DNA from: a virus
Reading direction: 5' to 3' (one strand)
Length of the DNA stretch: 44,033 nt
Virus record (IMG/VR): IMGVR_UViG_3300048876_000028
Coordinates: 1-44,033 of that record
In this document: piece by piece, positions 4,146 through 30,517 of the stretch
Layout of the letters: the number at the start of each line of letters is the position of its first letter
Position numbering within the stretch: position 1 is the stretch's first letter
Translations under genes and position numbers: made by a program
Notes under the pieces: generated by a model
The model's database searches: none
Seen by the model: only the letters and a program-made list of their open reading frames with translations
What the model was told of the DNA's origin: nothing

Positions 4146-4571
4146 TTGAAAAAGCTTGTATTCGCATTCCTAGCCTTAGCGCTGGTCTCGCCGCTCGCTC
4201 ATGCGCAGTCGGCACACGACGTTCAACTGACTGCAATTCTGGCAACCAGTTGCAATACGGCGACCCCCTGCTATACCGAGATTTATCGTCTCACCGCATC
4301 GGGCCCGACAGCAGCTTGCTCGGCCACGGTTGCCAGCTACACGCTGATCGCTTCGTCTTTGCTCGGCACGACGGTCACAAACACCGGAAGCACGACCGTC
4401 TATGACGATCAAGATCCTGCGCTGACGACTGGATCTAGCTACTGCTATACCGCAACGGTTCACTATCTTGCGAGCACCGGGGGTGAGAGCGGGATGAGTC
4501 CAACCGTTCTCGTAACGTTTCCGCTTCCTCCGTCCCCGCCATCGGCCCTCACCGCCCTTATCAAAAAGTAG
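4146..4571 (+). CDS. Exported FN3/Ig-like small protein
   Basis: 141 aa from a TTG at 4146 behind a GGGAG ribosome site. The N-terminus is a textbook signal peptide: KK, a hydrophobic core (LVFAFLALALV) and an AHA cleavage site near residue 20. The mature part is about 120 residues with four cysteines, a Ser/Thr-rich beta-sandwich pattern like a fibronectin type III domain (CYTEIYRLTAS, SSYCYTATVHYLAS), and a proline-rich tail. The paired cysteines fit export to an oxidising compartment. A signal-peptide protein between terminase and portal is unusual; it could be a moron acting on the host envelope. Domain assignment is from pattern only. Confidence 0.7.
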   Translation: MKKLVFAFLALALVSPLAHAQSAHDVQLTAILATSCNTATPCYTEIYRLTASGPTAACSATVASYTLIASSLLGTTVTNTGSTTVYDDQDPALTTGSSYCYTATVHYLASTGGESGMSPTVLVTFPLPPSPPSALTALIKK

Positions 4572-4580
4572 GGATTGACG

Positions 4581-4766
4581 ATGATGATTGAAGTCGATAA
4601 CGAACGCGGAGAGATCATCCTCGACGGCGTTGTGATCAGCTTCGAGATTCTGAAGGCGCTTGCTCATCCTGACGGCTCTTTCTATCACATGACTCCGACC
4701 GAAAATGACGGCGTGCTGGTTACCAAATATCCGGCCGTCGCCATCATGGTCGACCCAGATTACTGA
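4581..4766 (+). CDS. Hypothetical small acidic protein before the portal gene
   Basis: 61 aa from ATG 4581, with AGGG seven bases upstream overlapping the end of the preceding gene; ATG 4584 and TTG 4575 are alternatives. The sequence alternates short strands and helices (IEVDNERGEIILDGVVISFEILKAL) and ends VDPDY. There is no signal peptide or membrane segment. It stands nine bases before the portal start and is probably co-translated with it. Function unknown. Confidence 0.6.
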   Translation: MMIEVDNERGEIILDGVVISFEILKALAHPDGSFYHMTPTENDGVLVTKYPAVAIMVDPDY

Positions 4767-4774
4767 GGACTTGA

Positions 4775-7009
4775 ATGGCTGAGATCGCAATCGTTCCCGA
4801 CAGGCCGAAGCTGATCGATCGGCTCAAGTCCTCATATGACGGCTGGTTTAATCCAGGCAAGCCGATCGCGGCAGTTGCACCGGCAGGCACTGAGCCCAGG
4901 CAGATCGACTTTACCCAGTCGCAAAACCTGAACTGGACGCCGCGGGCTTACGAGCCAATCGGCTTTGCCAAGCTGCGGATGTTCGCCGATAACTGCTATC
5001 TGATGCGCGTCATCATTGAAAAAATGAAGGATCGCATCTGCTCAAAGACGTACCACTTCCGGCTCAAACCAAAGCCAGGTGAGTATGAAGCGATGACGAA
5101 AGAGCGGTCGAACGAGGATCCGCGCATCGCGCAATTGAGCGAGTTCTTCATTTTTCCGGACTCCATCAACAGCTGGAAGAAGTGGCTGCGCATGGTCCTC
5201 GAAGACCGGCTGGTAATCGATGCCGCTTCGCTCGAGGTTCAACGGACTCGGGACAACCGGATTTACAATCTTTCGCCTGTTGACGGTGCAACGATCAATG
5301 TCCTGATCGATGAGACAGGGCGCAGACCGCATGCACCACTTCCGGCGTATCGCCAGATCATCAAGGGTTTGCCTGCAATCGACTTCTCTGCAGGCGTTCC
5401 GGTCGATGATCAACGCCAGCTGGTCTACATGCCAGCCAACGTTCGCGCGCACAAGCTTTATGGATACAGCCCGGTTGAGCAGACGCTGCAGCTGATGATG
5501 CTGGTGATTTACAAGACTGTCTTCCATCTCGACTTTTGGGCTGAGGGTGATCTTCCCTTGGCGCAGATGCCGATTCCGGAGACGATGAGCATCACGGATG
5601 CCATGCGGCTGATGCGCGAGATTCAAGCACGGCTTACCGGGGACCTGGCAGAACGCAACAAGATTCTGCCTGTCTTTGGTGGCGGCAAGATTGAAGTTAT
5701 CAAGCATGAGCCCTTCGATGTGAAGTTCGAAGAGTGGGCAGCGCGAGTGTTTTGCTACGTCATCGGCGAACCTGCCACCGGCTTTGTACAGCAGAACAAC
5801 CGCGCCACTGCCCAGCAGCAGGACGATTCTCGCGAAGAGTCTGGCGAACAGCCGGTGATGCTCTGGGTCAAGGATGAGTTGGACGCGATGATTCAGCGTC
5901 CTGACCTGTTCAATGCAGCAGACATCGAGTTTATCTGGGACGAGCAAGCAGAGACCGATGCGCTCAAACAAGCGCAGATCGATCAGATCAATGTCGCAAT
6001 TGGCACGCGCGTAGCTGATGAATTGCGTGGGCGCGACGGACTTTCACCTCTCTGGGAAGATTCCGGCGGCAATCCGCCTCAACCTTCCATGATGGTTTCG
6101 AACGAAGAGGAGCAGGACGATCCAGGAGCTACAGGCGGGGATGATAAGTCAAGCAGTGATTCAAAGGTTCCAAACACGCCGCCAAAGAAGAAAGTTTCCA
6201 AAGCCGCTCAAAAAAAAACTCTGAAAATCGACCCTGCAGCCTTCACAAAGGCTCGCCGGGCCGCTACTGACAAAGTCGATGCGGCGCTTAAGGCGTTTTT
6301 CTTCACCCAACGTCATGCGGTTTCGCTGGTCATTGCACCGCATCTTTCCGAAGCGGAAAAAGCTGCTGCTAATCCAGATCCGGATGCTGTTCTCAACTCA
6401 ATCGACTGGGAAGCTTGGTCTGCTTTAATTCCAATCTTCGAGCAGCAGCTTGAGGACACCGGCAAAGATGCAATCGCAACCGTCTTCGCCACGCTGAATC
6501 TTGAGGCTGACGGAGACTTCTTCAAGCTAGCCAACACCTATGCGAGCGATTACGCGCATGCCAGAGCGGCAGAGTTGGTCGGCAAGAAATGGATGAACGG
6601 CGTATTGGTCGACAATCCCAAGGCTGAATGGGCGATCACGCAGACGACGCGCGAACAGTTGAGGGAATTGATTACCCAAGCTTTCGCGGATAAATGGTCG
6701 CCGACCGAACTGGCGAAGCAGATTGATTCAGCTTTCGCATTCTCAGTGGGTCGGGCAACGATGATCGCCGAAACTGAGACCGCCATGGCGCTTACCGATG
6801 CCACCGTCAAGACCGGGATTGAAGCCGGGGCAACAACGAAATCGACGCAGATGTCAAACCTGCATGACATCGATGACGAATGCGATGAGGCAGAGCAAGC
6901 GGGCGAAGTTGCAATCGATGCACCTTATCCAAGCGGCGCTTTACATGTTCCGTTACACCCGCGCTGCCGATGCGTGGAGTTGCTGCATATCGCGAAGGAG
7001 TCGAAGTGA
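4775..7009 (+). CDS. Portal protein fused to a MuF-like head morphogenesis domain
   Basis: 744 aa. Residues 1 to ~430 match phage portal proteins: an N-terminal arm, then long helices with the segment GEPATGFVQQNNRATAQQQ, typical of portal cores. A polar, lysine- and acid-rich linker spans about 440-490. Residues ~490-744 look like the Mu gpF / phage head morphogenesis domain, ending in the family's C-terminal HPRCRC motif (about 730-735) with an upstream CDEAE. The portal forms the dodecameric DNA gate at one head vertex; MuF proteins are minor head proteins, some injected with the DNA. The two are normally separate adjacent genes; here they form one ORF with no sign of sequence error. Confidence 0.88.
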   Translation: MAEIAIVPDRPKLIDRLKSSYDGWFNPGKPIAAVAPAGTEPRQIDFTQSQNLNWTPRAYEPIGFAKLRMFADNCYLMRVIIEKMKDRICSKTYHFRLKPKPGEYEAMTKERSNEDPRIAQLSEFFIFPDSINSWKKWLRMVLEDRLVIDAASLEVQRTRDNRIYNLSPVDGATINVLIDETGRRPHAPLPAYRQIIKGLPAIDFSAGVPVDDQRQLVYMPANVRAHKLYGYSPVEQTLQLMMLVIYKTVFHLDFWAEGDLPLAQMPIPETMSITDAMRLMREIQARLTGDLAERNKILPVFGGGKIEVIKHEPFDVKFEEWAARVFCYVIGEPATGFVQQNNRATAQQQDDSREESGEQPVMLWVKDELDAMIQRPDLFNAADIEFIWDEQAETDALKQAQIDQINVAIGTRVADELRGRDGLSPLWEDSGGNPPQPSMMVSNEEEQDDPGATGGDDKSSSDSKVPNTPPKKKVSKAAQKKTLKIDPAAFTKARRAATDKVDAALKAFFFTQRHAVSLVIAPHLSEAEKAAANPDPDAVLNSIDWEAWSALIPIFEQQLEDTGKDAIATVFATLNLEADGDFFKLANTYASDYAHARAAELVGKKWMNGVLVDNPKAEWAITQTTREQLRELITQAFADKWSPTELAKQIDSAFAFSVGRATMIAETETAMALTDATVKTGIEAGATTKSTQMSNLHDIDDECDEAEQAGEVAIDAPYPSGALHVPLHPRCRCVELLHIAKESK

Positions 7010-8781
7010 AAGCCAGACTGTTCATTATTTGCGGAGCGATTCTAGCCATATCGCTTAGCCTCGGAGGCCAGACCAATACCAGCGCGTTTCTCACGCCCCT
7101 CTTCGGTCTTGGTGCGCCCAGTTCCGGTGCTTGCACTTCTACCAACTTAGGGCAGCTCTATTACGCGACTGCTACGATGCCCTTCCCGCGCTATATATGT
7201 CTGCCGGGCGGTTGGACGCTGCAAGGAAACGCACAGTTCCCGCTCTCTATTCTTGGCGTGCCTGTTCCTCTGGGTTTCACGGATGCGTTTCAGGTGACCG
7301 GCGTCCCTCCCGGCCCCGTTAACGTAAGTTCTCAGCAATCCATACTAAGTGGGCCTCTTGTCTTCGACCACTTTATTCACACAGACAGCACGGCGCTGAA
7401 TGGGTTAACTGCCGAATCTGGAAATTCAACATGGAGCGTGGGGGGTTCAGGAGGCTCGACGATTGCTTCCATTTCCGGAACCCGTTTAATAAACAATGTC
7501 GCGGCCAGCTTGGGTTACGGCTTTTACGCATCACTTGGAAACAGCTCCACCATTGGCGGAGCGCTTCAGCCCGTGACCGAAGTAGGAGTGGTTTATTATC
7601 TCTGTCCATCAACCGCTGGCACATACAATCCTGGCCAACAGGGGGGCGCTCTCATGGCAAACGATGCCGTGGGGGACATTCAAAATATGTTGCATGTAAC
7701 GTTTGGCCCTGAGGGGTGGGTTTTAACCAAATTTGTAGGCGGGGTTACCACACCTTTGTTGACCAATATCTACCCGGCAGAGCCACCAGACTGCATCACA
7801 CCCCGCCAGATGGTCATGAGAATCAACACTGCGGCGGGAACCGTGATGGTCGTTGACCCAACGGGGGCATCGCAATCAGCGACAGACTCGGACATCACAA
7901 ATACGATCAAACCGGTATCGGGTACTTGGGAAATTGTCAGTGCCACAAACTATGTGACTACCCAAATTGGAGAGGTTTGGATGGGTAAGTCGCTAGCTGA
8001 GAAATATGCTAGCCAAGGCTTGAGTGCAACGTCGAGTGACGTAGGTGCTTTGCAAGGCACCTGGGGAACTTCAAGATATGTATATCCCTCCATTACGATT
8101 CCGAATGCGGCGGGGGGAGGCGGGACAGGTTGGTATCGGATTGCTTCTGGGGCAACTCAACTAGGTAGCGAAGATCTGATCGGCACTTTTATTATCTCCG
8201 CCTATGTTCCGGGGACTGGTGGCCAGGTTCTTACTTTTAGAGCGGCCTCGCCACTTGGGGCAGGGTATTCCAACACTGTGGTGCTGGATAACGAACTTAC
8301 CGGGGCAACGCCTATCGATCAAGTAAGAGTCAGCAATGACGGATCGGCCAACGTTGGTCTGGACATCCATCTTAACGCTACTTACACGACCAGCGCGATC
8401 ACCATCAATATGCTTGGTGTTGGCATCTTGACACCGGCTACGGCTTTTCCAGTGGGGGCAACGGCGTACACAAATTCAACTGTGCTTTCCACAACGACCA
8501 CCGGTTACGGTTTTGCTCTGATCCCCATCACTGGACGGACAAATGGGGCCGATGGAGGAACTGCTCAAGCGGCGGGCGCGTGTACATATGATTTTGTTCC
8601 CATGAATGGAACAATAACGTCGGGCATGGCCTTTACGATAAACCCAGAAGCTGATCCCGGCCCGGCAACGTACTACAAAGCTTTCTATTATTCTTCAGCA
8701 GATGCCATCATTTACTGGTGCTCGGCGATTGCGGCAACGCCAAATCCAGTCTTTTACAGAGTGACCGCATCGCTTCCATGA
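7006..8781 (+). CDS. Exported 591-aa structural-like protein in the head region
   Basis: Start is the GTG at 7006, with AAGGAG five bases upstream; it overlaps the portal stop by four bases. Residues 1-21 form a signal peptide (KARLFIICGAILAISLSL). A short module follows with C43, N-x-G-Q and a GW near 69-70, also seen in the 790-aa protein at 28145. The remainder is Gly/Ser/Thr-rich and beta-type: residues ~120-350 resemble a concanavalin/LamG-like lectin fold, and the C-terminal third resembles phage fibre repeats. Its place between portal and protease is odd for a fibre. It may be a decoration, adhesin or secreted glycan-binding protein; fold and role are inference. Confidence 0.7.
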   Translation: MKARLFIICGAILAISLSLGGQTNTSAFLTPLFGLGAPSSGACTSTNLGQLYYATATMPFPRYICLPGGWTLQGNAQFPLSILGVPVPLGFTDAFQVTGVPPGPVNVSSQQSILSGPLVFDHFIHTDSTALNGLTAESGNSTWSVGGSGGSTIASISGTRLINNVAASLGYGFYASLGNSSTIGGALQPVTEVGVVYYLCPSTAGTYNPGQQGGALMANDAVGDIQNMLHVTFGPEGWVLTKFVGGVTTPLLTNIYPAEPPDCITPRQMVMRINTAAGTVMVVDPTGASQSATDSDITNTIKPVSGTWEIVSATNYVTTQIGEVWMGKSLAEKYASQGLSATSSDVGALQGTWGTSRYVYPSITIPNAAGGGGTGWYRIASGATQLGSEDLIGTFIISAYVPGTGGQVLTFRAASPLGAGYSNTVVLDNELTGATPIDQVRVSNDGSANVGLDIHLNATYTTSAITINMLGVGILTPATAFPVGATAYTNSTVLSTTTTGYGFALIPITGRTNGADGGTAQAAGACTYDFVPMNGTITSGMAFTINPEADPGPATYYKAFYYSSADAIIYWCSAIAATPNPVFYRVTASLP

Positions 8782-8987
8782 TCCGTTTCTGGAAGGGCCT
8801 CAACAAAGTCGAGACCTGCGGCGCTGAAATGAAGCTTGGGATTCTTATCCCGCATGGCGTGCGCTGCGAAAAGGCTCCGAATCATCTGGGTGCTCATGCA
8901 TGCGGCTCGCACATGTGGACTCGTACCCGCGAAGAGATGCAGGCGCACATCACTGAACTCAATCAACCTCAGAGGGATGATCTATGA
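8778..8987 (+). CDS. Hypothetical Cys/His-rich small protein
   Basis: 69 aa, ATG 8778 overlapping the previous stop (ATGA). Cysteines and histidines are spaced as C..C-x7-H-x3-C (CGAEMK, RCEKAPNHLGAHAC), possibly binding zinc. Its stop overlaps the ATG of the next tiny gene, so it is part of a coupled string leading to the protease. The family is unknown. Similar Cys/His small ORFs occur elsewhere in this window (1-222, 34117-34290, 41670-41855). Confidence 0.6.
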   Translation: MIRFWKGLNKVETCGAEMKLGILIPHGVRCEKAPNHLGAHACGSHMWTRTREEMQAHITELNQPQRDDL

Positions 8988-9112
8988 CGGTGATGAAGCG
9001 GCTGATTAGGTTTCTAGATTGGCTTTTTCTTGATCGCCGCGCGCGCAGAATTTCCGGGCCTTATGGCTCAAGCCGCTTGGTTTATTTCGGGGAAGAGGGC
9101 TGGGATGATTAA
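8984..9112 (+). CDS. Hypothetical 42-aa basic peptide coupled to the protease gene
   Basis: ATG at 8984 overlaps the previous stop by four bases and follows GAGGG. The ORF ends at 9112, eight bases inside the protease gene. The product starts with a basic amphipathic helix (MKRLIRFLDWLFLDRRARR) and ends EEGWDD. It may be a true small protein or mainly a translational bridge that sets protease expression. The coupling at both ends is the only support. Confidence 0.4.
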   Translation: MTVMKRLIRFLDWLFLDRRARRISGPYGSSRLVYFGEEGWDD

Positions 9113-10268: not shown

Positions 10269-10288
10269 CTCCCGGTAACCAGTCTCAT

Positions 10289-10310
10289 CCGGGCGTCATT
10301 CGGCGCCCGG
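10289..10310 (+). other. Hairpin between protease and capsid genes
   Basis: CCGGGCG (10289-10295) pairs with CGCCCGG (10304-10310), leaving an 8-base loop, followed by TTCGTATTT. The T-run is weak, so this may be a partial terminator or an mRNA-processing stem that separates low protease from high capsid expression. Confidence 0.45.
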
Positions 10311-10390
10311 TTCGTATTTGCGTTGGCGCGCGACTCCACCTCTCAAAAACAAGACCTCCCGGCCTAAACAGCCGTGGGCCTAGGAGAAAC

Positions 10391-11884: not shown

Positions 11885-11890
11885 CGAAGT

Positions 11891-11922
11891 TTGGACCGCG
11901 CCTCGCGCCGGGATCGGTCCAA
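11891..11922 (+). other. First hairpin after the capsid gene
   Basis: TTGGACC (11891-11897) and GGTCCAA (11916-11922) are perfect 7-base arms around an 18-base GC-rich loop, starting seven bases after the capsid stop. No T-run follows, so it is more likely an mRNA-protecting or processing stem than a terminator. Confidence 0.45.
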
Positions 11923-11928
11923 GCAAAG

Positions 11929-11963
11929 CTGCCGGGGACATCTTCCTCCGGTGTTCTCGGCAG
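11929..11963 (+). other. Second, longer hairpin after the capsid gene
   Basis: CTGCCGGGGACA (11929-11940) pairs along 12 bases with TGTTCTCGGCAG (11952-11963), counting two G-U pairs, around an 11-base loop. It stands just before the ribosome site of the connector gene and lacks a T-run. Together with the first hairpin it probably stabilises capsid mRNA or dampens read-through. Confidence 0.45.
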
Positions 11964-11983
11964 TGTAACGCGCGGAGGCATAA

Positions 11984-13529: not shown

Positions 13530-13541
13530 AGGAGCATCCCA

Positions 13542-14276: not shown

Positions 14277-14298
14277 TGGCAATTTGGCTGTAATTTTA

Positions 14299-14320
14299 GG
14301 GAATTACATACTTGACTCCC
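14299..14320 (+). repeat. 22-bp palindromic motif, copy 1
   Basis: Form GGGAnTTA, six bases, TrAnTCCC. It lies directly before the AAAGGAG ribosome site of the small gene at 14342. It matches the reverse complement of copy 2 (14584-14605) at 20 of 22 positions and copy 3 (42849-42870) at 19 of 22. Confidence 0.6.
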
Positions 14321-14341
14321 TCGGGAGCAAAGGAGAATGAC

Positions 14342-14584: not shown

Positions 14585-14605
14585 GGAGTCAAGTATATAA
14601 GTCCC
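14584..14605 (-). repeat. 22-bp palindromic motif, copy 2 (inverted)
   Basis: Begins on the last base of the TAG stop of the 14342 gene. Its reverse complement agrees with copy 1 at 20 of 22 positions, including a perfect 14-base inverted match (14308-14321 against 14583-14596). Confidence 0.6.
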
Positions 14606-14609
14606 TTTT

Positions 14610-15119: not shown

Positions 15120-15236
15120 ATGCAAACGCTGACAGTTGGCAAGATCGCATTGGGAGTGTTTTACGGCAATCTAATGTTCGCGGTTGTCCTTGGGGTGGTG
15201 TTCGGAGTCCTCGCCTACCTCGGAGTCGTCCGCTAA
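15120..15236 (+). CDS. Small single-pass membrane peptide
   Basis: 38 aa. One long hydrophobic stretch (residues ~9-35: ALGVFYGNLMFAVVLGVVFGVLAYLGVV) flanked by single charges. There is no good ribosome site, only overlap in context with the frameshift product ending ten bases earlier, so translation is uncertain. A terminator follows 23 bases after its stop. It may be a minor membrane protein or chance. Confidence 0.4.
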   Translation: MQTLTVGKIALGVFYGNLMFAVVLGVVFGVLAYLGVVR

Positions 15237-15259
15237 CCCCCGTTTCCTCTGCTCTTCAC

Positions 15260-15283
15260 AAGCCGCCTTCGGGCGGCTTTTCT
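15260..15283 (+). terminator. Intrinsic terminator before the tape measure gene
   Basis: AAGCCGCC (15260-15267), tetraloop TTCG, GGCGGCTT (15272-15279) and the T-rich tail TTTTCT. It is the clearest intrinsic terminator in the window and lies inside the late gene order, 21 bases before the tape measure ATG. Confidence 0.8.
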
Positions 15284-15303
15284 CATGTTCGAAAGGATCT
15301 CCG

Positions 15304-17610
15304 ATGGCCGATGACATGCTGATTGGAGTAGGCGTCAAAGCCGACTTTTCGAGCCTGAAGAATGAAGCCAAGTCCGCATCGGACGCTCTGAAGCAGGCTG
15401 AAGCGAATTGGAAGTCAGCATTCGAGCAACTCGGGGCATCGGCAGCGCAGGGCAGTGCGCAGGCACAGGAAGCGCTCAAAGGATACGAAGCCGAACTCCA
15501 GCAAGCCCAGGCAAAGGCAGCGAGTGCAGCCGCAGCCATGGCGGAAGTAAACGCTGGCGCAGCGGCTTCCGCGCGGGCTATGGCCGGAGCGCAGGCCGGT
15601 GCTGGCGCAGCCGCATCTCATACAGTGCCTCAATTCGCTGCGGCCTCTGGCGCACTACGTGAATTGCAAGGGAACTTCGATCACAATATCCGCGCTGGAG
15701 AGCGCTTCCTGACTACCACGCTCGGGTTGGGACCGGCCCTGGAGGCAGCTTTCCCTGTCGTTGGCGCGCTGGCGTTGGTTGGCATCCTGTTTGAAGTCGG
15801 GAAAAGCCTTGTCAAAGTTGGTGACGATGCCGCATCCCTAGGGCGGGAATTGGGCGGCGGCTGGCTCCTCGGTGCGGCTGCCGAAATGCATGGATTCGGC
15901 AACGAGATCAAGCAGACCGATGAAGAGCTGATGAAGCTCGCCGCGGATCGAGACAGGGAAAAAACTCAAAAACAGTCGCTAGATGTTGAGAACGTCCGCC
16001 TCCACACGAACGTCGATACATACAAGCAAAAGACGCAAGGTTTGGGTCCAGAGAATTCGAAAAACGCCTCTGCCTATTCTCGCGCGGCGAGCGAAGCCTC
16101 ATCGGCTGGAGAGCAAGCGGCGGACGATCTTAAGTCCCAGCAGCTACAGGAGCGGATAGACGCGCTCGAAAAGACCAAAGCTCTTCAGGTTCAAATCTAC
16201 GAAGCCATTGAAAAGCAGGTTACCGCGCAAGACGCAGTTGCAAAGCTCACTCATGAAGGCATTGGCAAGCTACGTAAAGATCAGGAAGAGGCGAACGCTC
16301 ATTATAAGGATGCGCTAGGGGAACAGATCAACCTGATCGAGGAGAAAAACAACCTCCAACTCAAAGGTGAGATCGCAGGCCAGCGAGAGACCCGCACCGA
16401 AGGAAAAGGGGCAGGCAACGGTGCCGACGAAGCGCGCATGCGTGCCGACAAGATTGCATTTGATCAGCTCAAAATCTCCCATGAACTCACGCTTGAGGAA
16501 GAGCAGGCGTTCTGGCAGACGCGGCTGGCCAACTATTCGAAGGCCAGTTCTGAATATGCCGAAATCGTCGGCAAGCTCGCGCAGCTATCTGAGCAGGAGC
16601 GCAAAGCGGAAAAGAAGGCTCTCGATGAGGAACAGGAAGAAAGCGACAAGATCGACGAGGAAGTCACTGCCGCATGGGAGAAGGACCTCAAGCAGCAGGA
16701 GGAAGCCGCCCAGGCCGCAACCCGCAGCGCTGAGATTCAGATCGAGGCAGCCGCCAAAGTAGCCGAAGCGCGGGTGCAATACGATCTGGCAACGAGCGCG
16801 ATCACGAAACAGAAAGCGGCATATGAACTCGCCCAGATCAAAGCCAAAGCTTATGGCGATCAAATCAAGGTCCTCGAGGAAGAACTCCGCCGACTTCAGC
16901 AGATCGATGGAATGGGCGGAAATACTGAGAATAAGCAGGCTGAAGTTCAGGACAGAATCTTTAGGCTGCAAAGCGAGCATAACGCCGCGCTGATCCAGCA
17001 GCAGCAGAAAGCCGCCGCTGCCTACACGAAGGACTGGAACAAGGCTTTCGACAGCATGAATCAGGTGTTTGCCAAGAACACCGCCATGTGGATCACCGGA
17101 CAGGAATCGCTCGCGAAGAGCTGGGCGAAGACCCTCGAGGGTATGACTCAAACGTTGATTGAAAATTTGCTAAAGCAAGCAGTCGCTTATGCGACCGCTG
17201 CGGCAACCCAGGAGGCGCAGGACGCGCGCTCAAAAATGGCGGACGCGGCGAAGGCTGCCAGGGGTGCATATACGGCTGTAGTCGGCATCCCGATCATCGG
17301 ACCCGTTCTCGCTCCCGCTGCTGCAGCCGTTGCATTCGCGGCGGTCGAGGCATTCGCAAATGGCGGCGTGGTAGGCGGTCCTTTTGGCTCGGCCGTTCCC
17401 ATCGTCGCGCACAGCGGCGAGCGCGTGATGACATCTGGCATGACAAACACCTTCGACCGCGTAATGAGCAACGCCAGCGCTGGCCAAGGCCCGACCAACA
17501 ATTCGACCGTCAACGCTCGAGTAAACCAGCACTTCTACGGCGGCAAAGCCAGCTCTGCCCAGGAAACCCAGCGCAGCATTCAGAACCTCAGAAAACGCGG
17601 CAAGCTCTAA
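15304..17610 (+). CDS. Tape measure protein
   Basis: 768 aa from ATG 15304 with AAAGGA upstream; the open frame upstream runs through the terminator and is ignored. Long alanine-, glutamate- and lysine-rich coiled coil (residues ~15-110 and ~200-540), a hydrophobic stretch near 590-620 (VVGIPIIGPVLAPAAAAVAFAAVEAFANGG) followed by GGxVGGP-like glycine repeats typical of tape measures, and a basic C-terminus. By the usual rule of about 0.15 nm per residue it predicts a tail near 115 nm. Position after the frameshifted chaperone confirms the call. Confidence 0.88.
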   Translation: MADDMLIGVGVKADFSSLKNEAKSASDALKQAEANWKSAFEQLGASAAQGSAQAQEALKGYEAELQQAQAKAASAAAAMAEVNAGAAASARAMAGAQAGAGAAASHTVPQFAAASGALRELQGNFDHNIRAGERFLTTTLGLGPALEAAFPVVGALALVGILFEVGKSLVKVGDDAASLGRELGGGWLLGAAAEMHGFGNEIKQTDEELMKLAADRDREKTQKQSLDVENVRLHTNVDTYKQKTQGLGPENSKNASAYSRAASEASSAGEQAADDLKSQQLQERIDALEKTKALQVQIYEAIEKQVTAQDAVAKLTHEGIGKLRKDQEEANAHYKDALGEQINLIEEKNNLQLKGEIAGQRETRTEGKGAGNGADEARMRADKIAFDQLKISHELTLEEEQAFWQTRLANYSKASSEYAEIVGKLAQLSEQERKAEKKALDEEQEESDKIDEEVTAAWEKDLKQQEEAAQAATRSAEIQIEAAAKVAEARVQYDLATSAITKQKAAYELAQIKAKAYGDQIKVLEEELRRLQQIDGMGGNTENKQAEVQDRIFRLQSEHNAALIQQQQKAAAAYTKDWNKAFDSMNQVFAKNTAMWITGQESLAKSWAKTLEGMTQTLIENLLKQAVAYATAAATQEAQDARSKMADAAKAARGAYTAVVGIPIIGPVLAPAAAAVAFAAVEAFANGGVVGGPFGSAVPIVAHSGERVMTSGMTNTFDRVMSNASAGQGPTNNSTVNARVNQHFYGGKASSAQETQRSIQNLRKRGKL

Positions 17611-19296: not shown

Positions 19297-19913
19297 TAGT
19301 TCCACGTGGCACAGCCGTTGAAATCGCGCGCACATGGATTGGCACGCCCTACGTGCGCGCTGGACGGATCAAAGGCGCGGGCGTCGACTGCGGAACGTTG
19401 CTCTCTGAAAACCTGCTCGGCATTGAGAAATGCGGCCCCGTGGAGATGGATCAGCTCATCCGAGATCTTGGATTTCTCTCGAACGACTGGTTTTGCCATG
19501 CCGCGGCCGACAAGTACGAGCAGGCCTTGCGCAAGTTCGCGCCGCTCAAGTGGAAGGGTATATGTCGGGGACACGACATCCCCGCCCTACCGGGTGATCT
19601 GGTTTTGTTCAAGGTTGTCAGCAGCACGCTTTATAACCACGGTGCCATCGTGACGCAGTGGCCGCGCTGTATTCATGCCGTGCACCCGCGCGTTGCGGAG
19701 ATGCGGGCCACATTGCACCCAATGACGGCATTTACCGAAATGGCAATCTTTGATCCATGGGGGGCCGACGCAATGATTTTCGATCAGATGCTGCAGCCTT
19801 CCAGTTGGGGCGAAACGGTTGAGGCCGGTAAATCTCCATGCGCTCCGATCAGCAAAGAGGCTGCGGCGGCCTGGACTGAATATCTGAAGACCACAAAGAA
19901 GAGGCTGCGCTAA
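19293..19913 (+). CDS. NlpC/P60-like tail peptidase
   Basis: 206 aa from GTG 19293, overlapping the DUF2163 stop; a 38-residue upstream extension is out of keeping with the family. The catalytic Cys is probably C33 (RIKGAGVDCGTLL), the His H116 (YNHGAIV) after the ALPGDLVLFK block typical of the fold, with H128 or H131 as third residue. In related phages it sits in the tail tip and cleaves peptidoglycan cross-links at DNA entry. The motif is GVDCG rather than the usual DCSG; otherwise it is canonical. Its stop overlaps the hub gene start by one base. Confidence 0.85.
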   Translation: MIVPRGTAVEIARTWIGTPYVRAGRIKGAGVDCGTLLSENLLGIEKCGPVEMDQLIRDLGFLSNDWFCHAAADKYEQALRKFAPLKWKGICRGHDIPALPGDLVLFKVVSSTLYNHGAIVTQWPRCIHAVHPRVAEMRATLHPMTAFTEMAIFDPWGADAMIFDQMLQPSSWGETVEAGKSPCAPISKEAAAAWTEYLKTTKKRLR

Positions 19914-22900
19914 TGCAAGCGGGCAAGAATCAAGCCTCCCAGCGACCTACAGCCTTCGGATCGATGCTGCAGGCCTCGACCTATGGGCTCGTTATCCCTG
20001 TACCGTACGGACGCTGCCAGACGCCGCTCTATGCGATCTGGGCCAACAATCTGCGTCAGGGCGGCTCAATCAAGAAGTTCAAGCAGATGAAAAAGGGCAT
20101 GACTGCTTTCTGCGAAAACATCAATTTCCTGATAGGCAAAAACCCTATTCTGATGGCGCTCCAAACCTGGAACAACGGGGCGATTCTTCCGCTCAGCGAT
20201 CAGGTTTACACAACGACGGCGACGGCAGGAACTGCGGGCGTTTTCACGGTTCCTGACCCATATTTCTATTCAATCACCGGCGTCACGCTCGAAGTTGCGT
20301 ACAGCGAAACCTTCAACGATTACGGAAGCCATGGGTCACAAACTTTAACGGGTACCTTCGAAGTCCCTTTGTGGAACCAGCTTTTCGCTGGTCCGGACCC
20401 GACCGCAAGCTCAGACCCGAGAAACTTCCCCTATTGCTATCGCTGGAACCCGCTCGCCGATGGGGCAATGATTCACATCGATAATCTAGCCTTTGGAGCT
20501 CTTCCGACCGGAACGCTGCGGATTTACTACACCCAGATGGTGCGGGCCACGAAGTACCAGCCGCCCATCTCCCGCATGCGCCTTGCGTTTGAAAACATTC
20601 TCGGCTCAGGCGACGAATACGACGGCAACGTCGCCGGTACGTCGACACCGCTCGCAACGCAGCAGATCCTTTATCCGCACTACGCAGGTCTTGGATCCTC
20701 CGAAATTGACCTCGGCTCAACCGGAACTATCCCGGCCATCAAGCAGGAAGTGCAAGCCAAGTGGGGCATCTCCTCGGGTGGGGACTGTGATTTTGTTGAC
20801 ATCATTGAGGATGTCGTCAAGAGCGGCATTACTCAGGCTGCGCTAGGAAGCAATCTCAACTTTGGTGCCACGCAGCACGGGACCGGCTGCTACAACCTTC
20901 CGGGCACGATTCAGAAGAAGCTGGCAACGAGTAATAACGCAAGCGGCCTCCCGGCCATGCTTTACGACATGCCGAACACGCAGGGGAATATCCTGGTGTG
21001 CTCGGCAACCGGTCAAGCTGCGCTCTCGATTGCAAGTTCGAACGGCGAAGCCTGGAATCCGATCTGGCCCGGCAGTCTGGCTGCCTATCAGGTTTGGTGG
21101 GCGACGGCCGCGGGCGGAACAAATACGGTTACCGTCTCAGGCGCTGGCCAGCCCTCCGAAGTCTGCATCATGGAAATCGGCGGCGTCGGACAGGCGAACG
21201 TTGCCGTTGATTCCTACACCACCGTCTTTCCAGGCGCGATCACCAACGCATCAGGAACGGTTCTCAAGAATTATTCAGCACCGCTCGGCTTGATCTATGT
21301 CGAGGCTCTCTGGGATACGTTCGAAATGGTGCAGCCGCTGCCTTCGGATGCGGTGATCCAGGGTATTTACCCGGTCATGGTCGCAGGCTACACGGCCAAC
21401 CATGCGCCTTCCGGGATCAGCTACGGAACGAGCCTGGTTCCGACCGACGGCTATACCAACCCAGCCGGCGCATCCGTATTTGGTGGGGGCAGCAGTTCAT
21501 TCAGCTCTACCGAGATGTATGGCGGATCGGTCGGGACGCTTCTTTCGGCACTCACCAATCTGTGCATCAACGCCTATCTGGGCGCGTCGACGGGGCCGAT
21601 CTTCGATTACACCCCGGTGGATGAGATCGATGTCAGCGCGGTGGGCGTAGCCGTCTACTACACTAGCGCGCACGTTCCTTCCGGGACGCCACCGATTCCT
21701 CCGCCGTTTACCATTCCTGGCGGTCAGGGCGTTGCCTGGGCGATGCCGACGCGCTTCCGCAGCGGTGGCCAGTTCAATTCTTATCCTCCCGGCGGAGGAG
21801 ATCCCAACTTTCAGGTGGCCCTCGGAAACACTGGAGGATTCACCCCGGCCACGGTGGTCACCAGCTCCACGCCAATCATTACGGATACCGGTGGCTCATT
21901 CTCAGTGCAGGCTGGCGGCACGACCGCTCGGAAGGGCTCGATCGGGACCACGGTCGCTGCAGGCTGGCCCGCCTTCCTTCTTTCCGTGCCGTTCTATGGC
22001 GGCGATTCTCCAGCCTCATCTCAGGTGGCAAAGTGGGAAGCGCTATTACCGGCCAATTTCTATGCGAAGGCTCTGGCCACGTTCCAAGCTCACGGAAGGA
22101 TCGTCAAGAATCCGGGCAGCTACAGCTTCACGGCACCGGGAACCGACCCGACCGCGCTTGCGATGCTGAGCATCAAGTATCTCGACGCTCCTCAGTTTCC
22201 TCAGCCGGGCGGAAGTTTCATCAATGTCCCTTCGATGGACCTGGTGCGGGCTCAGTGCCGTGCCGGGGGATTGTTCGGGTCTTTGAGTATGACAGCGCAG
22301 AAGGCCGCGCGGGACTGGATTCAAGACCTCTGCGATGCGGCAGATTGCGCACCGGTGTTCTCTGGCCACCAGCTTTACCTCCATCCGCGCTCTGAAGTCT
22401 CTGCAGTAGGTAACGGAGCAGTTTATATCTCTCCGACAGCTTCCGGGCCAGTAGCTGATCTTGATGTCGACAACGGCGACTTCGTTACCCAAAAGGGCCA
22501 ACCTGCTATCAAGGCCACCCGGAAATCACGGGTTGGCGATCAGATTTATACGGTCCTCCAGATGCAGCACGTCAACCGGGTCTCGGCTTATCAGCAAGTC
22601 ACAACGGCTGAGCCAGACGCGGCTGGAATCGTTCGCTATGGGGTGCGCAAGGAAGACCCGACAGTCAATGACGCGGTGCAGGATGTAGTGATTGCACGAA
22701 GTATCTTGAGGATCCTCATCCGGCGCATGAACTACGTCGAGAACATGAGCTATGAGTTCTCACTCAATCAGCGCTGGGCCCCATTGAATTCGATGAGCCT
22801 GGTGACGATCACCGATCGTTCGCAGGGAATTGTGAAAGTTCCTGTCAGGCTGACGAGCTGGGAGGAAGACGACAAATTAGAAATCGCCTGCCAGGCTGAG

Positions 22901-23752
22901 CCGTTTGTGTATGGGATTCATGCTCCGCAGATTCTGCCGGTAACGACTCCTACCCCTTATAGCGGCAACGGCACGGTGAATCTGACGGCTGGCAATGTGA
23001 ACCCGCCAATCATCATGGAGCCGGTCTCGCGCCTCTATTCAGGGACCAAGGCTCAACTCTGGCTGGTGATCAGTTCGAGCGCGACGAACTACGGGGGCTC
23101 TCAGGTTTATGTTTCAACTGATGGCGGGGCGAGCTACAACCCGCTGGGCAGCCCGGTAATCGGCAACGCGACAACTGGAGTTCTAACCGCGGACTGGCCA
23201 GCGGCGACCGATCCAGATACAGCGAACAATTTGCTGCTTGATCTCACGGAATCAAACGGGATGCTCGAAAGCTACGCGGTCTCGGACGAAGACAACTTCG
23301 TTTATCCCTGCTATGTGGCGGGGCAGCAGCTCATCGTGAAGATGAACGGTACGACCATTGCGCTGCTCTCGAACACCACCATCAAAATGAATGGGGTCAC
23401 CATCGCTTCGTCAGGCAACTTTGGCTACGAGTTGATGACCTATGCGAATGCGCTGCTCACCGGCACAAGTCTGTACACGCTCGAAGCCACCGCCGGCAGC
23501 CATCTACGCCGCGCGGTCTTCAATGCGCCCGACAGTATAGGCAACGGCATCGATCATCCTTCCGGCAGCCGCTTCGCATTCCTCTCGCCGGCGGGTACTG
23601 GAATTCTCAAGGTCGACATGGATGCGGTCTGGGTTGGCCAGACGCTTTATTTCAAGGTTCTCAGCTTCAACGAATTCGGCTCGGCGGCACAGTCCTTGAC
23701 CGACGTTCCCGCCTACGCCTACACGCCTACCGGCGTTCCATCTACCGTCTGA
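19913..23752 (+). CDS. Long tail hub / tip protein (GTA gp15-like)
   Basis: 1279 aa. The N-terminus resembles phage central hub proteins. The middle has long Ser/Gly/Thr-rich stretches (about 430-640) that look like beta-rich insertions. Around residues 850-1010 is the conserved hub core: MQHVNRVSAYQQVTTAEP, VARSILRILIRRMNYVENMSYEFSLNQRWAPLNSMSLVTITD. The C-terminal ~250 residues hold fibronectin-like repeats (VYVSTDGGASYNPLGSPV). It follows the DUF2460, DUF2163 and NlpC/P60 genes as in gene transfer agents, where the equivalent protein contacts the cell. The receptor-binding part is probably in the beta-rich insertions. Confidence 0.82.
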   Translation: MQAGKNQASQRPTAFGSMLQASTYGLVIPVPYGRCQTPLYAIWANNLRQGGSIKKFKQMKKGMTAFCENINFLIGKNPILMALQTWNNGAILPLSDQVYTTTATAGTAGVFTVPDPYFYSITGVTLEVAYSETFNDYGSHGSQTLTGTFEVPLWNQLFAGPDPTASSDPRNFPYCYRWNPLADGAMIHIDNLAFGALPTGTLRIYYTQMVRATKYQPPISRMRLAFENILGSGDEYDGNVAGTSTPLATQQILYPHYAGLGSSEIDLGSTGTIPAIKQEVQAKWGISSGGDCDFVDIIEDVVKSGITQAALGSNLNFGATQHGTGCYNLPGTIQKKLATSNNASGLPAMLYDMPNTQGNILVCSATGQAALSIASSNGEAWNPIWPGSLAAYQVWWATAAGGTNTVTVSGAGQPSEVCIMEIGGVGQANVAVDSYTTVFPGAITNASGTVLKNYSAPLGLIYVEALWDTFEMVQPLPSDAVIQGIYPVMVAGYTANHAPSGISYGTSLVPTDGYTNPAGASVFGGGSSSFSSTEMYGGSVGTLLSALTNLCINAYLGASTGPIFDYTPVDEIDVSAVGVAVYYTSAHVPSGTPPIPPPFTIPGGQGVAWAMPTRFRSGGQFNSYPPGGGDPNFQVALGNTGGFTPATVVTSSTPIITDTGGSFSVQAGGTTARKGSIGTTVAAGWPAFLLSVPFYGGDSPASSQVAKWEALLPANFYAKALATFQAHGRIVKNPGSYSFTAPGTDPTALAMLSIKYLDAPQFPQPGGSFINVPSMDLVRAQCRAGGLFGSLSMTAQKAARDWIQDLCDAADCAPVFSGHQLYLHPRSEVSAVGNGAVYISPTASGPVADLDVDNGDFVTQKGQPAIKATRKSRVGDQIYTVLQMQHVNRVSAYQQVTTAEPDAAGIVRYGVRKEDPTVNDAVQDVVIARSILRILIRRMNYVENMSYEFSLNQRWAPLNSMSLVTITDRSQGIVKVPVRLTSWEEDDKLEIACQAEPFVYGIHAPQILPVTTPTPYSGNGTVNLTAGNVNPPIIMEPVSRLYSGTKAQLWLVISSSATNYGGSQVYVSTDGGASYNPLGSPVIGNATTGVLTADWPAATDPDTANNLLLDLTESNGMLESYAVSDEDNFVYPCYVAGQQLIVKMNGTTIALLSNTTIKMNGVTIASSGNFGYELMTYANALLTGTSLYTLEATAGSHLRRAVFNAPDSIGNGIDHPSGSRFAFLSPAGTGILKVDMDAVWVGQTLYFKVLSFNEFGSAAQSLTDVPAYAYTPTGVPSTV

Positions 23753-23759
23753 GGTTCAC

Positions 23760-24077
23760 ATGACAGCTTCGATCATCAACTTCTCTAATACGACGCCTGC
23801 AGCAAGCAGTGCCGGCAAGATCAACGCCCTCTGGCAGAACGATGGCGGCTCTTCGACGGTGAACGTCTCGGCCGAAGTTCCTTATCCCACTCGCGAGACA
23901 GTGACCTTTACCGGAACTGCGGGGACGCTCGCGAACACGCCGGTGTTGATTATCGTGGCGTTCAAGAATGGTCAGGAAATCGAACTCACGACCGACTTCA
24001 CGATTGCGGGGGCGAATATCACTCTAGTTGTCGCTGCAGTCAGCACCGACAAATTCATCTTCGTTTATTACTTCTGA
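23760..24077 (+). CDS. Small beta-type tail tip protein
   Basis: 105 aa, GAGG eight bases before the ATG. Mostly beta strands with Ser/Thr/Ala spacing (IINFSNTTPAASSAGKINALWQND), a TVTFTGTAGTLA strand repeat and an aromatic C-terminus (KFIFVYYF). It could be a short fibre, a collar or a chaperone of the tail tip. No signal peptide, unlike its downstream neighbours. Family unknown. Confidence 0.6.
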   Translation: MTASIINFSNTTPAASSAGKINALWQNDGGSSTVNVSAEVPYPTRETVTFTGTAGTLANTPVLIIVAFKNGQEIELTTDFTIAGANITLVVAAVSTDKFIFVYYF

Positions 24078-24084
24078 GGTTTTG

Positions 24085-27000: not shown

Positions 27001-28134
27001 GTTTTGATCGGCTCCGTCTCTTCCATCTGGGGCGCAAACGGAACAGGCAACCCTCAATACGACGTCTACACAGCCGAAGAATTCACGCTGATCGGGCCCG
27101 CGAACGCTGGTCTATATCAAGGCGTGGCCTTCCACAACTACGGCTGCAGAACGACTACAGTTCCCACTCTTCCACCTACCGCAAGCACTGGAACGAATAG
27201 TTGTTACGTCTCGCAAGCGAATCAGGTCACGCAGTTTGAGGCGGTCGCGTTGCAGCAATCGAGCACGGTAAGCTGGTCGGGCCATCTGCCTGTTTATATC
27301 TCGGAAGGCGGGTTTGGCGAAGTCAATCAGCTGAACGGAGACAATACTTCCGGTGTCGCATATATGAGCGAGTTGCCCGCATTGGTCGCGTCTGCGCCGG
27401 GCGCTGGAGCCTCGAATTACTATCCGCCTGTCACGGATATGCTCTACCTAGGATGGGACACGAACCCGACCCCAACAACTAACCAGTGGGGATGCCTCTG
27501 GAAGTGCGGCCCGACAGGAACCGCCTCGCCCTGGTATCAGGCGCTAGTTCAAGTGACGGCATGGGAGGCCGCGGCGACGTCGGCTGGCGCATGCGTCACG
27601 TCTTCAATCACAGGCGGAACGATGTGGCGCTGCCCCCTGAATGGAGGCACCTCAGAGATTGACTGGTGCGCGGTCCCGGATACATCGACGTGCACGACGA
27701 CAACAGCTTTCAACACGCAGCAGGCAGCGTCTTCACTTGTCGGGGGAATATGGACAACCGGAGCTGTCTCGTCCACAGGGGGCGTGCTGACGCTGGGCCC
27801 GATTTCAGAGTTGGTCTACAACTCTGGCGGGAGCATCGCCGCCACGCCAACGTTCGCACCAGCGGCGGGAACCTATCCCTCGACGCGGGCAGTGACCATC
27901 AGCGATACCACTCCGAGTTCAACGATCACTTACTGCACAGATACGACAAACACTTGCACCCCATCCACCACATACACAACGACGATCAGCGTTTCGAGCA
28001 CGGAGTATGTTCGCGCCTCCGCCACGGCCATTGGCTACGCGCCGAGTTCGATCGCGAGCGCGCTCTATACCATCGTTGCGCCGCCGCCCACGGCTTTGCA
28101 AAGCACCATTCTGTACACTTCCGGCGTTAACTAG
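24085..28134 (+). CDS. Giant exported protein: beta-helix, chitobiase-like repeats, glycosidase-like barrel
   Basis: 1349 aa from ATG 24085 (GAGG upstream). Residues 1-19 are a clear signal peptide (RRIIPILLLLCASSVFG). Residues ~40-340 repeat short strands with N/D-rich turns, as in right-handed beta-helix pectate-lyase-like folds. Beta repeats near 542-630, 636-710, 718-785 and 1252-1345 resemble chitobiase/hexosaminidase C-terminal domains (YYTTDGTTPTT, TITYCTDTTNT). Residues ~790-1240 look like a clan-A glycosidase TIM barrel: E933 in DESGNEVN as acid/base and E1074 in YISEGGFGEVN as nucleophile. It probably degrades a polysaccharide. Place and size suggest a tail depolymerase, but a signal peptide makes a secreted enzyme equally likely. 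Confidence 0.75.
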   Translation: MRRIIPILLLLCASSVFGQSCTTATCNAASASEVDILAALPSTGNTNATVTVNIPTSTASWTGGITYTIPSAVTTLIIQGATTVTCTGTSGTSSYACSATDNSVIADSWNNGTGQALITINTGAASSYLRITGLTFKGGSSTQSKYGLVTIQGNSQHVRQDHSHYNNETYPSGVSTAWVQWNGRNQGVLDHNLVDMSTCNGSSGTSCSGYTSNGFRANNPVGDFIGNGDGTFMTATPWGTAAAMFIEDNVFNGGAPNDCAAAGFFVMRHNTLNDNYVAVQTHGTKTPAGPARGCRGYEAYNNYFTGPGSPYQASSVVGAKGGTALIWGNTMAANTAYRFSDFGGDRESGDEGETNTPNGWGYCGTTVNGNGVGSPWDGNNNTGTGKPCLDGIGRGQQTQAMNGAAFPPASPSRLNSVTGTIAWPHQYLEPMYYWNNTINGATYLIWGDQSVNNLDFYYDQSAQSGSFTGAAGTGSGLLSARPSTCTAGPGGTYNSSPTGSYGVGYWATDTNTFYVCDGSPANHWAAIYQPYTYPHPLVAGGPPQVSLPSFSPSSGVPPQTVTTTDSTGGATLCGRNDGGTPTATTAGTCDGSPTFTITGTQSVTVNPTTLTAIGTEAGYVNSSVASATYSGSSPAATPVWTPASGAYPYGYAITLATSTYGCTPYIWWGASNPPTTSNYNTQALNNYYAGTYYAKVIGCPGYSDSGVATATYAISSGATFSPTSLSAPGYVTLAGTGAIYYTTDGTTPTTLSAVYQYPLYVQNSQTIKALASGVVGSQAYTIPFQATNFGLMRGANSQTMPTSSGMPVDPLYDRMQPATGVEVRQISPTRGTYNWTNYDAWVSSITSHGGKVYFTRQANPNWMTGLNDSTTDGPPTDLNTSAACLGVLTGTTTTDCTMKEWETAHMMHVTGLSSQPSSPVSCPNLSFDESGNEVNTYSGSYSIVGWSSTPSTFVQMMNDRATIIHEWCLDTKVLIGSVSSIWGANGTGNPQYDVYTAEEFTLIGPANAGLYQGVAFHNYGCRTTTVPTLPPTASTGTNSCYVSQANQVTQFEAVALQQSSTVSWSGHLPVYISEGGFGEVNQLNGDNTSGVAYMSELPALVASAPGAGASNYYPPVTDMLYLGWDTNPTPTTNQWGCLWKCGPTGTASPWYQALVQVTAWEAAATSAGACVTSSITGGTMWRCPLNGGTSEIDWCAVPDTSTCTTTTAFNTQQAASSLVGGIWTTGAVSSTGGVLTLGPISELVYNSGGSIAATPTFAPAAGTYPSTRAVTISDTTPSSTITYCTDTTNTCTPSTTYTTTISVSSTEYVRASATAIGYAPSSIASALYTIVAPPPTALQSTILYTSGVN

Positions 28135-28144
28135 GAGATTTTCC

Positions 28145-30517
28145 ATGCGTAAGATTCTTGTTGCGGCCTTGGTGTTTCTGTCGGCACTTGCATCGGCTCA
28201 GACCTTGATCAATCCGACCAATCAGATCAAGTGGCCGCTCACCACGATCACCGGTTCCGACTCGCCGATTCAATCCTGTGCGGCCGGGAACTACGGCCAG
28301 CCCTTCCAGCGCACCGATGTGAGCCCGAATAAATACGGGACATGTGGTGCAGATGGTTGGCAGTATCGCGGAACCACGACAGGGAGCGCTGTCAACTGGT
28401 CGATCATCACCGCGAACACGACAGCAACGTGCGGGCAGTTTCTGCGTGACGACGCAACGGGCGCGATCACCATCACCTTGCCTGCGATCGCGACCGGCTG
28501 CTCGGTTGGCATCATGCGCGGGGTTTCTGCCGGCACGCTGACCATTGCGCCTCCCGGTGGCGTCAGTTACGACGGCGTGACGACGCAGCTACCCCAGGGG
28601 GAGACGACTTTGGTCGGCACGGATGGCACGGGCTATCACTCCAGCTCGCCAATCGTCGCCGGATCGGGATGCACGATCACGCCATCGCTTACTGGCAACA
28701 GCTTAACCTGCAGCGGGACCGGCGGGGTGACACAGATCGTCGCAGGAACAGGAATTACTGTCTCGCCGGGAGGCGGGACCGGCGTAGTGACGGTCAATGG
28801 CGCTGCCTTCGGCTACCCGTCGGGGACAGTCGCTCCGTTCTTTGGCAACTCGCTATTTCTGGTAAACGGATATACGACGGTTTTCCCAACAACCTATAGT
28901 TGTACTTCAGGAACCTGCACCATCACTGCAAACAATAACTACGCAGCGGGGCAGTTGATCCAATTCCAAGGCACCGGAACTCCGTCATGCTTTAACAGTT
29001 TCTTAGGCAATGTTACTTCGGCAACAACGTTTCAGTTTGTCATCTCTGGCACATCCTGCGGGACGGCATCGGGTTCGGTAACGGCATTTGCGAACGAAGC
29101 TGGGAGTGCAAGCTCCTGCACTGCGAACCTCTGCACGATCACATCGGGAAATACCTTCACGCCAGGTCAGAGTGTGACATTCAATTCAGGTACCTCACCA
29201 TCGTGCTTAGAAGGGCGCTCCTTTAAAGTTCTCTCCTCGGGTTTGAGTAGTTCGCAGTTCGAAGTCGACACGACGAATTGGGGCAACTGCGGAAGCTCGT
29301 CAGGCTCGGGAATGCTCTATTGGGCAGGTGCGACGAACTGGCCCGACCTTGCTTGCGGTGAGCAATGGTTCTCGAACGTCACCTGTCAGAACTACGGCCT
29401 TTCAGATGCAAACGCGACATACAAGGGAACACTCTCTAGCCTGGTCACAAATTATACTGCGGCCATCCACCCGATCATGGCTGCGATTGTGACGGCTGCG
29501 GGTAGCAATCCTGTTCCGGTTTACCTTTATACAAATGACTCGCTGGGCATAGCAACGGACGAGGCGAATTTTCTGACGCTTGCGCAGGACCTCCATGCCG
29601 AGGGCGCGAATGTGCAAGTGAGCGTGCACACAATTCCTCCTGCTGTTTTTAGCGATCCGAACGGCATAAGCGCAACGCATCAGGCGAATGACTGGCAAGC
29701 AGAATCAAGCTGGATGTGGACGCAGCTAGGTTCGAAGAACGCTCTCGCAACCGGCAAATACTTCGACAGGGTAATCGCCTTGAATGGCGTTATCAATCCC
29801 GGTATGAGCAATCCCGACGGCATTCACTTAAACAACGCTGGAACTCAAGCGGCGGCGGATGTGGACAACACAGAAGCGGGCTTGCGCGGTGCGGGACTGA
29901 AACAGAACTCCGGCTGGCTGAACGCCACAGCGAATTACTGGACCGGCTTCCAGTATCAGGTTGACCCGCTCGACATCACCAAGGTTGCGATGTGGAGATG
30001 GGACCACAATACCGGAGAGTTCAAGCTGACATTCGGCGACCCGCTGGTGACGAGCAATTCTACCGACATCATCAAGGCGTCCACGTCTACGCTGAAGTTT
30101 GAAGTTGCACCGAACTTCGATACCATCACTGGATCGACGCAGTGCTTGCATGTAAGTTCTGCTGGTCTGGTAAGCGGGACGGGGGCAGACTGTAGCGGAA
30201 CCGCGACAAACTGCTCTAGTTCGGTATCCCCAGCAGTCTGCGGCTCGGCGGCGGCGGGGTCTATTCTGATTCCCACCGGGACAACAAGCTCAACGCTTAC
30301 AGTGAACACGAGCGCAGTCACAGCGAATAGCCAGATATTCTTCTATCCAGACGATAGCCTTGGGACGCGCCTGAGCGTGACATGCAACTCAACGCTGGCG
30401 ACTTTGGCGGGCGGTAGTTTCATTAGCGCGCGGACTCCGGGGACTAGTTTTACCATCACGTTCAATGGAACGATTGTTGCGAATGGCGTGTGCGGATCAT
30501 ATTTGGTTGTGAATTGA
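28145..30517 (+). CDS. Exported SGNH-hydrolase-like protein with inserted beta repeats
   Basis: 790 aa from ATG 28145 (GGAGA upstream). Residues 1-19 form a signal peptide (RKILVAALVFLSALASA). Residues ~40-75 carry the module C-x4-N-x-GQ..Y-x-T-C..GW also found in the protein at 7006. The catalytic core looks like SGNH esterases: FFGNSLF with S236 (GNS in place of the usual GDS) and D558-x-x-H561 in PDGIHLNNAG. Between them lie two cysteine-paired beta repeats of about 60 residues (ITANNNYAAGQLIQFQG; ITSGNTFTPGQSVTFNSG). SGNH enzymes in phages deacetylate surface glycans. The serine assignment is inferred. Confidence 0.72.
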   Translation: MRKILVAALVFLSALASAQTLINPTNQIKWPLTTITGSDSPIQSCAAGNYGQPFQRTDVSPNKYGTCGADGWQYRGTTTGSAVNWSIITANTTATCGQFLRDDATGAITITLPAIATGCSVGIMRGVSAGTLTIAPPGGVSYDGVTTQLPQGETTLVGTDGTGYHSSSPIVAGSGCTITPSLTGNSLTCSGTGGVTQIVAGTGITVSPGGGTGVVTVNGAAFGYPSGTVAPFFGNSLFLVNGYTTVFPTTYSCTSGTCTITANNNYAAGQLIQFQGTGTPSCFNSFLGNVTSATTFQFVISGTSCGTASGSVTAFANEAGSASSCTANLCTITSGNTFTPGQSVTFNSGTSPSCLEGRSFKVLSSGLSSSQFEVDTTNWGNCGSSSGSGMLYWAGATNWPDLACGEQWFSNVTCQNYGLSDANATYKGTLSSLVTNYTAAIHPIMAAIVTAAGSNPVPVYLYTNDSLGIATDEANFLTLAQDLHAEGANVQVSVHTIPPAVFSDPNGISATHQANDWQAESSWMWTQLGSKNALATGKYFDRVIALNGVINPGMSNPDGIHLNNAGTQAAADVDNTEAGLRGAGLKQNSGWLNATANYWTGFQYQVDPLDITKVAMWRWDHNTGEFKLTFGDPLVTSNSTDIIKASTSTLKFEVAPNFDTITGSTQCLHVSSAGLVSGTGADCSGTATNCSSSVSPAVCGSAAAGSILIPTGTTSSTLTVNTSAVTANSQIFFYPDDSLGTRLSVTCNSTLATLAGGSFISARTPGTSFTITFNGTIVANGVCGSYLVVN

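Follow-up and report, generated by a model that had tools for sequence, protein, structure and literature searches.

Signal peptides on fibre-type proteins of tailed phages suggest host-recognition parts made outside the cytoplasm

A set of tailed phages, mostly from acidobacteria or soil, encodes fibre- and spike-type proteins with Sec signal peptides in the virion block, suggesting that synthesis of their host-recognition parts is completed outside the cytoplasm, with late addition to the particle or independent action. The starting point is a 44,033 bp virus sequence without end repeats, analysed over its whole length and referred to here as the window (Table 1). An initial annotation had singled out four of its proteins, which we call A to D, as bearing signal peptides although encoded among head and tail genes. 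Their starts had been placed correctly, each with a Shine-Dalgarno-like sequence (GGGAG, AAGGAG, TGAGG and AGGAG, respectively), and the gene neighbourhood is as described: A and B belong to the head block, the start of B overlapping the portal stop by 4 bp, and of the four only C and D occupy the fibre slot between the tail tip and the lysis genes of the same operon. TerL gives no clear host call for the window phage: the closest acidobacterial match has 39% identity, and cultured phages of other hosts reach 36%. The 744-aa product of 4775-7009 unites portal and Mu F-like head morphogenesis parts. At 34184-35155 the window also encodes a repetitive 323-aa protein, which several PHROGs of unknown function match strongly over multiple stretches (phrog_7713, E 4.5e-63).

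Table 1. Virion-block features of the window, in order along the sequence; a slash marks the predicted cleavage site.
Feature	Coordinates	Strand	Remarks
Terminase large subunit (TerL)	2271..3965	+	No leader
Protein A, 141 aa	4146..4571	+	TTG start; signal peptide MKKLVFAFLALALVSPLAHA/Q; 4 Cys; between TerL and portal
Portal with Mu F-like domain fusion	4775..7009	+	No leader
Protein B, 591 aa	7006..8781	+	GTG start; leader MKARLFIICGAILAISLSLG, cleavage site weak; 6 Cys; flanked by portal and prohead protease genes
Prohead protease, capsid and tail genes			Downstream of B, upstream of tape measure
Tape measure	15184-17610
Tail tip (Phage-tail_3, J-like)	19913..23752	+	No leader
105-aa protein	23760..24077	+	No leader; between tail tip and C
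Protein C, 1349 aa	24085..28134	+	Signal peptide MRRIIPILLLLCASSVFG/Q; CHB_HEX_C modules; 30 Cys; fibre slot
Protein D, 790 aa	28145..30517	+	Signal peptide MRKILVAALVFLSALASA/Q; C-terminal K1-lyase_C-like domain; 22 Cys; fibre slot, just 5' of endolysin
GH108 endolysin	30646..31170	+	No leader; end of virion block

Leaders were predicted with a weight matrix of the classical type for prokaryotic signal peptides, together with charge and hydrophobicity rules for the n-region and h-region. All four leaders had been described as textbook examples. This holds for A, C and D, where a basic n-region, a hydrophobic h-region and an A-x-A-type site are clear (A 14.8, cut AHA/Q; C 6.7, VFG/Q; D 9.1, with ASA/Q scoring 7.3). 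The n-region and h-region of B are also clear; its cleavage site is weak (4.0 at residue 20) and we therefore grade its leader as probable rather than textbook. None of the 17 other window genes checked was called, and the false-call rate was 0.4% (77 of 20,000 N-termini shuffled at constant composition). Sec export of the leader-bearing proteins is well supported by inference. The leader scan also flagged the protein at 31877-32602, 3' of the endolysin, in which an N-terminal hydrophobic helix is followed by a long coiled-coil-like stretch and which resembles a membrane-anchored protein.

Mature cysteine counts are even in all four proteins (4, 6, 30 and 22), amounting to 3.3, 1.1, 2.3 and 2.9% in A to D, set against a mean of 0.8% for the other 15 window genes counted. 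The proposed beta-rich folds find partial support. Two CHB_HEX_C modules in C score above the Pfam cut-off; D matches K1-lyase_C (PF24146) at 22.1 bits, below the curated cut-off of 27 (L005 scores 18.3), and A and B have no Pfam match. SGNH-like motifs can be seen by eye in D, to which Pfam GDSL gives no match. No recognised fibre/spike family or virion-docking domain was found in any of the four. Neither tblastn searches of 50,697 phage records with B, C and D nor a search of viral contigs with full-length B and C returned a match, and PDB sequence searches with C and D gave nothing useful. An AlphaFold model of D alone was of low confidence (pLDDT 36).

A sister phage (L002/L226) has a TerL 76% identical to that of the window. 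In L002, TerL is followed directly by the portal and the portal by the protease, with neither A nor B between them, and A and B are therefore accessory. In L226 an 802-aa protein directly 3' of the tail tip combines a leader (MRKLLLLLSLAAPACVLA/Q) with collagen-like GPT repeats and a GDSL domain (PF13472, 1.7e-11) and, barring one marginal match, is no homologue of C or D. Between window and sister, the fibre slot retains the leader while the protein changes. The reverse complement of L226 (1308-2180) encodes an additional leader-bearing protein of 290 aa (MKKRVLLSLLLAVLATAAQAHA), directly 5' of the tape measure gene. Ten acidobacterial prophage regions with TerL 30-39% identical to that of the window contain no clear fibre-like leader-bearing gene.

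Other phages also have leaders on fibre-type sequences. The C-terminal 106 residues of D match, at 82% identity, the end of a 589-aa protein from an unrelated 89-kb phage; in that protein a leader is followed by fibre-type repeats. In L010, which comes from an Acidobacteriaceae genome, a protein with matches to tail-fibre families begins with a leader, and L003 encodes two leader-bearing fibre-like proteins between TerL and portal. Similar genes lie downstream of the terminase, on the same strand, in L024, L029, L034, L078 and L090. The 105-aa C-terminal domain of D also occurs at protein ends in two Parcubacteria-labelled MAG contigs (L007, L009) and a Chloroflexi MAG (L008), some of them with leaders; as L007 sits among glycosyltransferase-type rather than phage genes, this domain is not phage-only.

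One docking domain serves as a natural comparison. A phrog_26190-type head-binding domain lies a few residues after the start codon, leader-free, in 9/9 annotated phages (of Xanthomonas, Rhodoferax, Vibrio, Pseudomonas and others), and 79 of 80 IMG/VR contigs with this domain are likewise leader-free, so that the leader is absent in 88/89 surveyed phages. The exception is L187. In Acidobacteriota, however, a leader stands before the head-binding domain in all three clear cases, namely L048, L059 (Terriglobus albidus) and L060. The fusion is thus present at four loci, of which L059 and L060 are related. One further acidobacterial domain match (L061) was dropped since no recognisable domain appeared in the frames read. 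Together with L010 and orf035 of phage PBR31, these four loci are the relatives in which a recognised fibre/spike family or docking domain is present.

L187 and four relatives, podoviruses represented by IMG/VR contigs of ~42 kb each, have leader-bearing genes in runs, with four consecutive genes from the head-binding spike onwards where fully covered and more in L234; the L233 sequence ends after two genes of its run. In the L231 spike, whose frame was read manually, the hydrophobic leader ends in SSVSSA/Q. The leaders of L230 and L232-L234 change quickly in sequence and keep their signal-peptide character: 10 of 18 leader codons differ in amino acid between L230 and L233, and both are still signal peptides. 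A CxxC pair has been gained in the head-binding domain of L187, L231 and L233. Within the L230-L234 family, some head-binding domains show CxxC where other members have the usual LxGG.

These observations bear on whether the leaders are used at all. To our knowledge, tailed-phage assembly is cytoplasmic in every case studied, and the hydrophobic N-terminus could instead be an uncleaved, virion-internal or membrane-contacting helix of a protein that stays in the cytoplasm; the weak cleavage site of B would fit. We consider this improbable given the full n-h-c architecture with A-x-A/Q sites, the retention of leader character while sequence varies, the cysteine enrichment described below, and the fact that the same head-binding domain works without such a helix in 88/89 phages.

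The same trait is present in a cultured acidobacterial phage, the podovirus Tunturi 1, which infects Tunturiibacter and is lytic (PMC11924767). At the GenBank-annotated starts, leaders are found on its gp12, gp13, gp14 (tail spike), gp16 and gp17 (virion structural protein), and on 0/14 of the other virion-block genes tested. Tunturi 2 keeps all five; its gp17 leader has three amino-acid changes and retains leader character. We found no large fibre-like gene without a leader in Tunturi 1, and since none remains, its spikes are very probably among the leader-bearing proteins, as judged from gene content. Cysteine contents are 2.05% in leader-bearing and 0.49% in leader-free proteins of this phage. 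Although unrelated to the window phage, Tunturi 1 and 2 resemble it in having leader-bearing virion-block proteins, five each, and in the CHB_HEX_C modules that Tunturi 1 gp17 has in common with C. The fibres of Tunturi 4 are leader-free, as are those of Tunturi 3, a phage that shares its host strain with Tunturi 1; the Tunturi 3 case indicates that the host does not require the trait. The paper describing these phages mentions neither signal peptides nor virion proteomics (PMC11924767).

The distribution is patchy: Tunturi 3, Tunturi 4 and the ten TerL-related prophage regions are without the trait. Outside Acidobacteriota it is present but looks rare, since among 295 large ORFs of ten cultured control phages only one was both leader-bearing and fibre-like. 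This is orf035 of the cultured Xanthomonas phage PBR31 (L140:24674-25483), which has a leader and a tail-fibre family match (1e-15) and lies directly 3' of the tail spike orf034, itself leader-free. As expected, the scan also detected lambda lom, between J and orf-401. The initial annotation knew of no standard phage module of this kind. Single leader-bearing genes beside tail genes are in fact known, lom being one, but for runs of leader-bearing fibre genes we found no description in the open papers searched.

In a curated set, leader-bearing fibre-type proteins are richer in cysteine than leader-free spikes. Thirty leader-bearing fibre-type proteins, hand-picked by phage context and leader before the set-wide count and not fully independent because some share one phage, average 1.83% cysteine, compared with 0.80% in 58 IMG/VR spikes that have no leader and 0.47% in 16 such spikes from cultured phages (p=3.6e-8). 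Even counts are found in 24/29 leader-bearing proteins (p=2.7e-4) and in 28/46 leader-free spikes, a difference that is not significant (Fisher p=0.07). The enrichment is not universal, as the leader-bearing proteins of L003 are Cys-poor. A survey by composition only, covering 49 terminase regions, found leader-bearing fibre-like genes in 10, at a density no higher than in random host DNA, and showed no significant cysteine difference (p=0.2). As this survey was not decisive, we relied on domain homology and complete phages.

Secreted proteins whose composition resembles that of fibres also occur in random acidobacterial host DNA (6 in 400 kb), which raises the possibility that the window genes are captured host genes, that is, secreted acidobacterial cargo unrelated to fibres. 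The GC3 of B deviates accordingly (0.52, the lowest among the genes checked). Such an origin nonetheless seems to us quite unlikely: GC3 of A, C and D is in line with phage genes, C and D hold a fixed fibre-slot position, starting 7 and 10 bp after the preceding gene, and tail-fibre family and head-binding domains occur at comparable positions in other phages.

The main rival is that these proteins are free secreted effectors, exported before lysis and acting without the virion, either as depolymerases or esterases that loosen slime or as receptor decoys that block superinfection, for which T5 Llp and lambda Lom offer a comparison. The GDSL/SGNH, CHB_HEX_C and K1-lyase_C-like parts would suit such a role, as would the dispensable nature of the A and B insertions and the precedent of secreted-type genes beside tail genes, e.g. 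lambda lom. Against it, Tunturi 1 forms plaques with no other large spike candidate, and leaders are fused to a head-binding domain at the four loci, two of them related. Overall we judge free effectors rather unlikely. Of the two readings in the initial annotation, glycan-active proteins that are secreted and fibres that are handled in an unusual way, the latter is the better supported, because other phages have leaders on domains recognised as those of spikes or fibres; the former may still apply to the window itself, because its four proteins have no recognised virion-docking domain. Nor do A to D show features of Lom, Bor or Llp, there being no Pfam match to the Ail/Lom barrel and no lipobox seen in the leaders.

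We give about an even chance to the reading that C, D and their equivalents are fibre- or spike-type host-recognition proteins, exported by Sec, disulfide-matured in the periplasm and probably joining virions at lysis. Four kinds of evidence in the genes argue for it: the leaders themselves, the cysteine enrichment in the curated set, the recurring link to the fibre slot and the leader before a docking domain in other phages. Late in infection, C, D and equivalents would pass through Sec to the periplasm, where the leader would be cleaved and disulfides formed. At lysis, mature spikes might dock onto tails that already bear a leader-free adaptor made in the cytoplasm. P22 tailspikes are able to join tailless particles in vitro. 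A candidate adaptor for C and D is the 105-aa protein between tail tip and C, for which no family match was found; L230 has a candidate at 3440-4267. A and B would be accessory exported proteins of similar style, inserted in the head block. That disulfide-bonded spikes exported in this way meet the capsid-tail complex only at lysis would be a two-compartment route not described for tailed phages, and we put it forward as a possibility that falls somewhat short of an even call.

Should spikes indeed pass through Sec, the final assembly step would take place outside the cytoplasm, disulfide-stabilised receptor-binding proteins would become possible and particles could carry mixed spikes from co-infecting phages. 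Tunturi 1 and its Tunturiibacter psychrotolerans host, with the leader-free Tunturi 3 on the same strain as a control, make the question directly testable. There is also a consequence for annotation: leader-bearing fibre genes resemble host secreted proteins or contamination and may drop out of phage gene calls.

The textbook view places tailed-phage assembly entirely in the cytoplasm, and the proteins described here compare with known systems in different respects. With podovirus tailspikes and fibres (P22/PBR31-like, K1 lyase-type) they share the slot before the lysis genes, a beta-rich low-charge composition, esterase or polysaccharide-active parts and, in relatives of the window phage, the head-binding domain. 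Known members, however, are cytoplasmic and begin with the head-binding domain, whereas the present proteins are rich in cysteine and start with a Sec leader. Lambda Lom and Bor and T5 Llp, known from lysogenic and lytic conversion, are likewise encoded by leader-bearing genes adjoining receptor-binding genes in the tail block, but these are single small outer-membrane proteins or lipoproteins, in contrast to the runs of large fibre-type proteins without a lipobox seen here. PBR31 gp40 is an SGNH esterase, tail-hydrolase-like, whose signal peptide was noted by the authors, who suggested a role in lysis (PMC10975493). PBR31 is therefore similar in having leaders on gp40 and orf035 and differs in that its main tail spike, orf034, is leader-free. 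Finally, pIII and pVIII of filamentous phages are virion proteins that are likewise made with a Sec signal peptide, but assembly of those phages takes place at the membrane, whereas the present phages are tailed, with portal and terminase.
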